Shown one piece after another: positions 44,469-52,794 of a DNA stretch of 64,000 nt (position 1 is its first letter; the number at the start of each line of letters is the position of its first letter). The notes beneath the pieces were generated by a model. It did no database searches and had not been told where the DNA came from. It saw only the letters and a list, made by a program, of their open reading frames with translations. Source of the DNA: Natrinema amylolyticum (GTDB taxonomy: Archaea; Halobacteriota; Halobacteria; Halobacteriales; Natrialbaceae); assembly GCF_020515625.1 (NCBI RefSeq), contig NZ_JAIWPJ010000001.1:1178001-1242000 (forward strand), written 5' to 3'. A program made the position numbers and the translations under genes.

Positions 44469-44759
44469 CTAGAGTCGCTCCGTATTCACGTCGACGCCTG
44501 GCGGCAGCACGAGCAGAAAGCCTCGGAAGTGGACGAGTTCGCCGCCCGATTCCTTGACGTCCCGCGCGAACCCGGCGGCCAGTTCGTTGACGTTGCCCTC
44601 GACGCTCAGAATGAGGACGTTCCCCTTCGAGATCGCCTCGAGCCACTCGTCGGCCGGTGTCTCTCCGTCGAGGACGCCGAGAACGAGGCTGCCCTCGAGA
44701 TCGAGTTCGTCGTCGATGTGCTCCTCGACGGCCCGAAGGTCGAGGTCGAAATCGCTCAT
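44469..44759 (-). CDS. DUF5779-type small protein
   Basis: 96 residues from ATG 44759; the upstream in-frame extension is arginine-rich and falls in the hairpin array. An acidic N-terminus (DLDLRAVEEHIDDELDLEGSLVLGVLDGETP) is followed by an alpha/beta core: WLEAISKGNVLILSVEGNVNELAAGFARDVKESGGELVHFRGFLLVLPPGVDV. The family appears widespread in haloarchaea, and function is unknown. Confidence 0.75.
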   Translation of the reverse strand: MSDFDLDLRAVEEHIDDELDLEGSLVLGVLDGETPADEWLEAISKGNVLILSVEGNVNELAAGFARDVKESGGELVHFRGFLLVLPPGVDVNTERL

Positions 44760-44815
44760 ACCGGGTGGGTCGAACCGGGACGAGAAAAACGTTCGCCTCC
44801 GAACTTTTGCTCTGC

Positions 44816-44952
44816 GGGCGCGCCGGAGGCGCGCCCTCGGTAAAATCTCGAGAGAGCGCACAGCGCTCTCTCGGACCTCGCGGGAGCGAAGCTCCCGCTT
44901 AGCTTCGATGAAAAGCCTACGTCACCCCCTCAGCCGCGCCGGTGGCGCGGCT
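44816..44952. repeat. Array of four perfect stem-loops with 3-base loops
   Basis: Four back-to-back inverted repeats are each perfect with a 3-base loop. They are 44816-44836 (9-bp stem, loop GGA), 44849-44873 (11 bp, loop ACA), 44880-44898 (8 bp, loop GAA) and 44932-44952 (9 bp, loop GGT). They lie between two minus-strand genes. As RNA they would be very stable. As DNA they could be cruciform or nucleoid-protein sites. Confidence 0.7.
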
Positions 44953-45015
44953 TCGAGGGCTCCTCGGCCCGCTCGCTCACTCCGTTCGCTCACGGATGCT
45001 GTCGAATACGGATAA

Positions 45016-45471
45016 TCAGTCCATCGGGAACTCCTTCTGGAACCCACGGAACTCGGTGCGGTGGGCCTCCTCGTCCGCGAGGATCGTCACCGCGACATCC
45101 TCGGTGACCGGGTCGTTCGCCTCGGACGCGGCCTCGTGGAGCGACTGGTAGGTCTCGATCGCGTCGTTCTCGGCCTCGAGGACTCCCTCGATGACCGACT
45201 GAACGTCAGTCGTGTCTTCGGGCGGCTGGAGGCTGTGCTGGTTGGCCTCGAACGACTCCGACCCCGGCGGCGACTCGTCGAGTTGCTTCAGGCGCTCGCC
45301 GAGCATCCGCGCGTGGTCGAGTTCCTCCTGAATGTCCTCCTCGAGACTCGTCTTGACCTCCTCGGCGTGGATACCGTCGAGGACGATCGCGTTCGTCTGG
45401 TAGTTCATCACGGTCTCGAGTTCGTCGATGTACGCTCCCGTCAGTAGATCGGTGATTTCGTCGGTCGTCAT
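45016..45471 (-). CDS. Ferritin-like diiron protein
   Basis: 151 residues from ATG 45471. It is a four-helix bundle of rubrerythrin/ferritin-like type. DELETVMNYQTNAIVLDGIHAEEVKTSLEEDIQEELDHARMLGERLKQL carries the E-x-x-H site of the first helix pair. VLEAENDAIETYQSLHEAA and ILADEEAHRTEFRGFQKEF carry the second pair. It probably binds two irons for oxygen or peroxide reduction or iron handling, and partners are not evident. A TATA box 25 bp ahead points to a leaderless transcript. Confidence 0.85.
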   Translation of the reverse strand: MTTDEITDLLTGAYIDELETVMNYQTNAIVLDGIHAEEVKTSLEEDIQEELDHARMLGERLKQLDESPPGSESFEANQHSLQPPEDTTDVQSVIEGVLEAENDAIETYQSLHEAASEANDPVTEDVAVTILADEEAHRTEFRGFQKEFPMD

Positions 45472-52775: not shown

Positions 52776-52794
52776 CGAGATGCTACGCATCTCG
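52776..52794 (+). repeat. Intercistronic hairpin between leuC and leuD
   Basis: CGAGATGC-TAC-GCATCTCG is a perfect 8-bp stem with a 3-base loop, located 4 bases after the leuC stop. There is no T-run after it, so it is more likely an RNA-stability or processing element than a terminator. Confidence 0.5.

Follow-up and report, generated by a model that had tools for sequence, protein, structure and literature searches.

What kind of sequence places four perfect stem-loops side by side in the short interval that separates a ferritin-like gene from a DUF5779 gene? The window, the whole 64-kb stretch of DNA that was analysed, belongs to a haloarchaeal genome of 4.71 Mb in 11 contigs. The four hairpins occupy 137 nt of it and are exactly those reported in the preliminary description: hairpin 1 (44816-44836, 9-bp stem, loop GGA), hairpin 2 (44849-44873, 11 bp, loop ACA), hairpin 3 (44880-44898, 8 bp, loop GAA), and hairpin 4 (44932-44952, 9 bp, loop GGT). 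Both neighbouring genes lie on the minus strand. The ferritin-like gene (45016-45471, stop codon 45016-45018; Pfam PF00210, E 7e-22) has orthologues in 29 of 29 genomes of the genus, and the DUF5779 gene (44469-44759; PF19091, E 2.7e-44) turns its 5' side towards the hairpins.

Perfect hairpins with a 3-nt loop and a stem of at least 8 bp were observed nine times in the window, against 2.6 expected from 30 second-order Markov sequences, and four of the nine fall inside the same 137 nt. The chance of four hairpins per 137 nt, as estimated from the window background rate, is negligible, in agreement with the earlier claim that the cluster is not fortuitous. Another of the nine, located at 52776-52794 in the short spacer between a leuC-like and a leuD-like gene (named by eye), had been put forward as a second example of the same form; it is a real 8-bp hairpin, but it gave no match to the element model described below at E up to 5. 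Other loop sizes are also in excess, as seen for 2-nt loops with stems of at least 8 bp in the window (10 observed versus 3.1 expected) and, over 200 kb of genome G068, for most loop sizes (loop 3, 37 versus 14.0; loop 0, 36 versus 11.6; loop 6, 31 versus 9.4); 200 kb of genome G036 gave 22 hairpins with 3-nt loops versus 11.8 expected. The anomaly is therefore the local cluster and not the 3-nt loop size.

Hairpin 3 was found in three exact copies in the genome, including that of the window, and the flanks of these copies are conserved too. The linker TTCGATGAAAAGCACTCCTCC, searched with up to three mismatches, occurs at 15 sites of the genome. The sites share a common core, CGAANTTTTGC-NCTGC-hairpin A-TCGGCAAAANTTCGAT-NAAAAGCACTCCTCC, and behind it a right part, and the linkers are better conserved among copies than the stems. 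With E up to 1 as the limit, a covariance model built from nine copies gave at least 30 matches in the genome, some of them being several per site. At the family level it matched 53 of 61 genomes, and at the order level 87 of 146, distributed over eight families (19 of the 87 belong to the window's own family); copy numbers are lower bounds, as 150 of 1917 candidates were scored in the genome and 33 per genome, with strict filters, in the order. The same kind of core and linkers was present in 20 copies inspected from other families. Among the matches to the core pattern that were listed (at least 120 stretches), all 80 rows from named genomes belong to Natrinema, Haloterrigena, Natronococcus, Halovivax, and other genera of the Natrialbaceae. 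Parsing of 59 loci, some of which are several matches of one site, left 11 without a parsed core (L034, L040, L043, L045, L052, L054, L068, L071, L075, L079, and L082). Parts of the element also match six plasmids of Natrinema and related genera, over 24-52% of the query and with no annotated feature beneath, and the core pattern had no match in viral contigs. No description of the core element was found in the open-access literature, subscription papers lying outside this search, and the available part of a paper on seven haloarchaeal genomes contains no such element (PMC3404096).

One copy of this element, made of the core, one module, and the right part, accounts for the whole cluster (44800-44995 on the plus strand, right end approximate). 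It was matched by the covariance model at 44796-44867 (E 1.3e-8), the next best match in the window having an E of 0.14. The palindromic core extends from 44800 to 44916. Its outer stem opens with the 5' arm CGAACTTTTGC (44800-44810, plus strand), an arm that covaries in alignment A2, which consists of 40 gap-free cores. The linker TCTGC (44811-44815, plus strand), with CTG invariant in the 40 rows of A2, leads to hairpin 1, which is the apical hairpin A and thus the tip of the core. It is followed by the linker TCGG, invariant in 40 of 40 rows, and by TAAAA, the first part of the 3' arm (together 44837-44845, plus strand). A 57-bp two-hairpin module, M1 (44846-44902), then separates this part from the second one, CTTCG followed by ATGAAAAGC (44903-44916, plus strand). 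M1 reads TCT-hairpin-GACCTC-hairpin-TTAG, its two hairpins being hairpins 2 and 3, and is absent from the same place in locus L207 of a close relative (genome G083). Hairpin 4 belongs to the right part, and its stem recurs with other loops in L207, L208, L219, L220, and L223. The right part also contains the block GGCCCGCTCGCTCACTCCGTTCGCTCACGG (44966-44995, plus strand), which is overlapped by the block GTCGTCGGCCCG in other copies; 20 nt separate the right end from the ferritin-like gene. In the copies of other genomes, compared over 25 of 29 loci, GTCGTCGGCCCG was present in 23 of 25 and CCTGCCCTYCCCC in 12 of 25, and the block was seen in other families as well.

Hairpins 2 and 3 thus form a single module; the tip of the core is hairpin 1, and the right part contributes hairpin 4. 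The preliminary description had suggested multiplied short palindromic elements, and this idea holds in that many sites of the genome carry the same linkers around different stems, and loci that otherwise match can differ in having or lacking a two-hairpin unit; it does not hold for the four hairpins as equals, as they are of three kinds. That the cluster is not a simple repeat was also found: tandem copies of one unit were rejected, the stems being different. A search of the window against Rfam at gathering score returned no family at the site, only a tRNA being found elsewhere in the window.

The ferritin locus was compared in the 29 genomes of the genus. Four loci were left unparsed. Among the 25 others, a core can be recognised in 15 and is missing from 10, of which two look decayed by eye; at locus L218, the element is absent and the spacer measures only 61 bp. 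The window copy (L204) and L207 differ by exactly the 57 nt of the two-hairpin unit, with matching flanks. In genomes G036 and G068, which are 93-97% identical in aligned blocks, the ferritin loci differ by a 57-nt unit, TCT-hairpin-GACCTC-hairpin-TTAG, and by a 62-nt unit, TCGTT-hairpin-TGATGA-hairpin-AACCA. Over 200 kb, these two genomes show 43 length differences of at least 12 nt, among which two are clean two-hairpin gains, both at the ferritin locus, and one is a complex hairpin change elsewhere.

A set of 594 matching-locus pairs, which is redundant, yielded 119 clean indels with a minimum length of 15 nt, each longer allele being counted once; the rows come from overlapping pairs and are not all independent. 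Sixty-seven gained no hairpin, 1 lost one, 32 gained one, and 19 gained at least two. The sizes of these 19 (49, 51, 51, 53, 56, 57, 57, 58, 60, 62, 62, 72, 83, 105, 106, 106, 107, 126, and 209 nt) place 11 at 49-62 nt and four at 105-107 nt, or nine and three distinct inserts when merged by eye, and leave four rows (72, 83, 126, and 209 nt) outside these classes. Fifteen further indel rows of roughly these sizes contain a single perfect hairpin with a stem of 7 bp or more. The largest hairpin array among the clean indels lies within one core at L045 (G000:C3, ~296 kb), which is 209 nt longer than L393.

The same size classes were observed at the insertion site in the core arm, where 164 of 175 copies have 0-1 nt, seven have 54-57 nt, four have 107-108 nt, and none has a length in between. 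A pattern allowing 0-1 nt at this site had served to fetch 119 of the 175 cores, two of which still carry a 57-nt insert, and inserts were found in nine of the 56 cores fetched otherwise. Because the fetch pattern favours copies with 0-1 nt, the predominance of copies lacking a module argues only weakly for gain, but the size classes are unaffected. Modules can also be nested: the module spacer of L386 is interrupted in L373 by a twin hairpin of 49 nt, and at a place where other loci have an insert of 45-49 nt, those of L214 and L231 measure 101-108 nt. In a set of 86 distinct twin hairpins, the spacers GACCTC and TCATCA each occur 13 times with varying stems, and a module with the TCATCA spacer was found in another family too (L309). 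The inserts lie in palindromic parts of the element. No target duplication was seen by eye when occupied and empty alleles were compared for M1 and for a second module, M2; the latter has GTSGTT...AACGAC, and M1 (TCT...TTAG) has, by eye, no terminal inverted repeats. A loose search with the M1 pattern gave 587 matches against 153 in the reversed control and was useless. Three viral contigs (IMG/VR L402, L403, and L404) matched the M1 hairpin pattern, which could be chance.

The size classes, the nesting, the preference for palindromes, and the lack of visible target duplication resemble transposition of folded single-stranded DNA. We favour, with a probability of about 0.6, the reading that small mobile palindromic modules accrete in a palindrome resembling a two-way terminator at gene 3' ends, and that the site in the window is one copy of this dispersed element. 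The core palindrome, CGAANTTTTGC-hairpin A-GCAAAANTTCG, mostly placed right after the stop codon of the preceding gene, offers a T-tract on both strands and would act as a compact two-way 3'-end or terminator element. Non-coding modules of ~50-60 bp, each made of two perfect hairpins with a short spacer and mostly 3-nt loops, would insert into the core and the right part and leave no visible target duplication. Spacers and hairpin feet would often be the sites, and some modules would lie within others. One such insertion would be the pair formed by hairpins 2 and 3. The changes would be gains by transposition rather than precise losses, and an enzyme that recognises structure, of HUH type or another, may act in trans on an intermediate of folded single-stranded DNA. 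Against mobile modules count, among other observations, the 67 of 119 clean indels without hairpin gain, the loci being indel-rich in general, the indel rows that fall outside the size classes or have a single hairpin, and a variation of the stems that an ordinary sequence-specific transposase should hardly tolerate.

This variation was analysed in alignment A2, in which covariation was scored on 840 cells. Pairing reached 98.7% of paired cells, compared with 92.6% after shuffling; eight pairs were changed on both sides (shuffled mean 3.7), as were 55 cells (shuffled mean 16.7), while one cell of the 840 had a one-sided change and 11 were unpaired. Stems thus differ between copies yet stay paired. 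Hairpin A, scored in 159 of the 175 cores, is perfect in 130 and has a 3-nt loop in 128. Columns 7, 49, and 56 of A2 define three linked subtypes, C/C/G (21), G/A/T (10), and A/T/C (6), with three others (n = 40); these subtypes coexist across genomes, and hairpin A stems are common to different subtypes, as if a cassette had been exchanged.

Selection on the fold of a structured RNA, the other suggestion of the preliminary description, here transcribed opposite the strand of the preceding gene, would also keep the stems paired, and we regard this as possible, though doubtful. In the window, the RNA would be the minus-strand 3' UTR of the ferritin-like mRNA, the extra hairpins being tolerated expansions. 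The excess of paired cells and the double changes are compatible with it, as is the conservation of linkers above that of stems. Mismatches in 93 distinct hairpins A, read on the gene-sense strand, comprise 14 A.C and two G.T with 18 others, and a second count over the core and right part gave 13 A.C and three G.T, against 7:7 and 4:2 in flank controls; an A.C mismatch corresponds to G.U on the opposite strand. The count at outer position 2, where a variable-length group had put 50 rows out of register (C-C 31, C-T 19), was left out. The 14:2 asymmetry hints at a transcribed structured RNA rather than mobile modules, and it is a hint only, because the copies are related and the test was picked with the data already in view. 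One-sided changes are usually frequent in RNA helices, whereas a single one was found here in 840 cells. In addition, the commonest loops of hairpin A have no strand preference (GAA 25 and TTC 25; GGA 10 and TCC 11), although others are biased (AGA 9 and TCT 1, TGC 7 and GCA 1, GTA 7 and TAC 1). The quantised two-hairpin insertions and the lack of an Rfam match at the site argue further against selection on an RNA fold.

The position of the core relative to genes was analysed in 119 named copies, with gene calls made by a simple in-house scorer. The core starts between -9 and +5 nt of a same-strand stop codon in 66 of the 119, compared with 107 of 5950 noncoding positions drawn at random from the same loci; a first test had found 67 of 119 starting within 15 nt after such a stop. 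Behind the TFS gene, the core directly follows the stop codon in 15 of 30 loci, and none was found within 160 nt in the other 15 (protein names, such as TFS, L10e, thermosome, EngB, and GyrB, were given by eye from translated ends without family search). The window copy is one of the exceptions, being in reverse sense and 20 nt behind the ferritin-like gene. Many copies have TTTT, sometimes TTTTT, a few nucleotides past the stop codon, and the palindromic core provides a T-tract of the same kind on both strands. At L066, L069, and L074, the core lies between a gyrB-like and a gyrA-like gene (by eye), in an apparent operon.

According to the available part of a study in Haloferax volcanii, RNA 3' ends carry T stretches and some hairpins, and one tested hairpin terminates 59% of transcripts (PMC7237163). 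A two-way terminator role of the core is thus plausible; the T-tracts, mostly only four T long, count against it. It could be proposed that the element is a bidirectional terminator and nothing more, with no mobile DNA, its hairpins changing by local mutation and by gene conversion between copies. The starts right after stop codons, the T4 tracts on both strands, and the Haloferax hairpins near RNA 3' ends speak for such a terminator, and the finding of the same hairpin A sequences with different outer-arm subtypes suggests exchange between copies. We nevertheless consider this explanation rather unlikely, as the whole element is present or absent at the ferritin locus and behind the TFS gene, and the inserted two-hairpin units bring foreign spacers.

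No enzyme that would move the modules was identified. The genome has two Y1 transposase genes, each beside a TnpB-type gene, and no module-like hairpins were detected in the flanking stretches inspected; no REP-associated transposase was found near modules. The core could be the end of a transposon derived from IS200/IS605, as in PATE-like elements, and the part of PMC3119063 available describes palindromic ends common to haloarchaeal PATEs and IS605-type transposons, as well as small mobile repeats that insert into PATEs. An M1-like hairpin also occurs near a sub-cut-off tnpB-like fragment (L004 and L332). However, the core model had no match in 18 Y1 and TnpB-type loci of this genome, and the 3' ends of 12 of 16 TnpB-type loci (260 nt each) showed by eye no likeness to the core. 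IS605 ends as the origin of the core are thus disfavoured, and we judge this derivation improbable. The weak tnpB-like fragment adjoined by M1-like hairpins at L004 and L332 (G000:C4, ~201.7-201.9 kb) perhaps represents a second kind of target. Finally, compositional chance in a GC-rich genome, in which other loop sizes are in excess too, can be dismissed, given four hairpins in 137 nt against a background of 2.6 per 64 kb and, above all, their recurrence elsewhere with conserved linkers.

Dispersal, position, covarying pairing, presence/absence, quantised insert size, and nesting are established, and the element is a genuine repeat that spans the order and carries apparently mobile two-hairpin inserts. 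A more specific version of the mobile-module reading, which we advance tentatively and think unlikely to be right in full, is a structure-directed system in which twin hairpins would be recognised by shape (a perfect stem, a 3-nt loop, and a short spacer) and not by sequence. Such hairpins would insert into palindromes, nest, and collect in 3'-end elements behind stop codons, and they would keep perfect arms while the stem sequence drifts if hairpin-templated copying rewrites both arms. The element, spread over eight families, provides a countable natural presence/absence set in which very small two-hairpin modules can be compared with the corresponding empty sites. What moves the SMRs of Haloquadratum, and why they enter palindromes, can thus be put to a direct test. 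The findings likewise indicate that many genes of haloarchaea are followed by a compact 3'-end element, for which the six matched plasmid places have no annotation.

The nearest known kinds are the PATE and SMR elements of Haloquadratum, bacterial REP dimers, and mitochondrial double-hairpin elements. The last of these, reported in the mitochondrial DNA of Allomyces and cited in PMC7218506, from the available part of which they are compared by description only, have two hairpins per unit, as their name says, and are inferred to be mobile; they differ in being mitochondrial. REP sequences and BIMEs likewise consist of paired palindromes, with most stems of 6-9 bp and loops of 2-3 nt in many families, and REP dimers are inserted within longer palindromes in some bacteria, as stated in the part of PMC3733652 at hand. 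In contrast to them, GTAG at the hairpin foot was found in none of our 86 twin hairpins and CGTC in one, the two Y1 genes have no module-like hairpins in the flanks inspected, and the modules are spread over an archaeal order with varying stems. In the accessible text of a REP survey covering archaea as well, words that start with Halo or Natri do not occur (PMC12306157).

The haloarchaeal elements described by Dyall-Smith and colleagues were compared through the part of their paper available (PMC3119063). PATEs are, like the present element, short and transposase-free, with palindromes near their termini that are targets of smaller inserts. Their ends resemble IS605 ends, whereas our core matched none of the 18 transposase loci, these being of its own genome only, and it lies mostly right after stop codons. 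SMR-A of Haloquadratum walsbyi measures ~110 bp, has prominent terminal inverted repeats, and inserts into the palindromes of PATE and IS605 elements by an unknown mechanism. The present modules mostly fall within 49-62 bp, contain two separate hairpins, and vary in stem sequence; single modules (49-62 nt) do not have the length of SMR-A, the double, four-hairpin inserts measuring 105-107 nt, and they lie in palindromic parts of a host element with 0 of 18 matches at IS605-type loci. Both kinds are nevertheless haloarchaeal and non-coding, have no mobiliser assigned, and are found without target duplication inside the palindromes of other elements.
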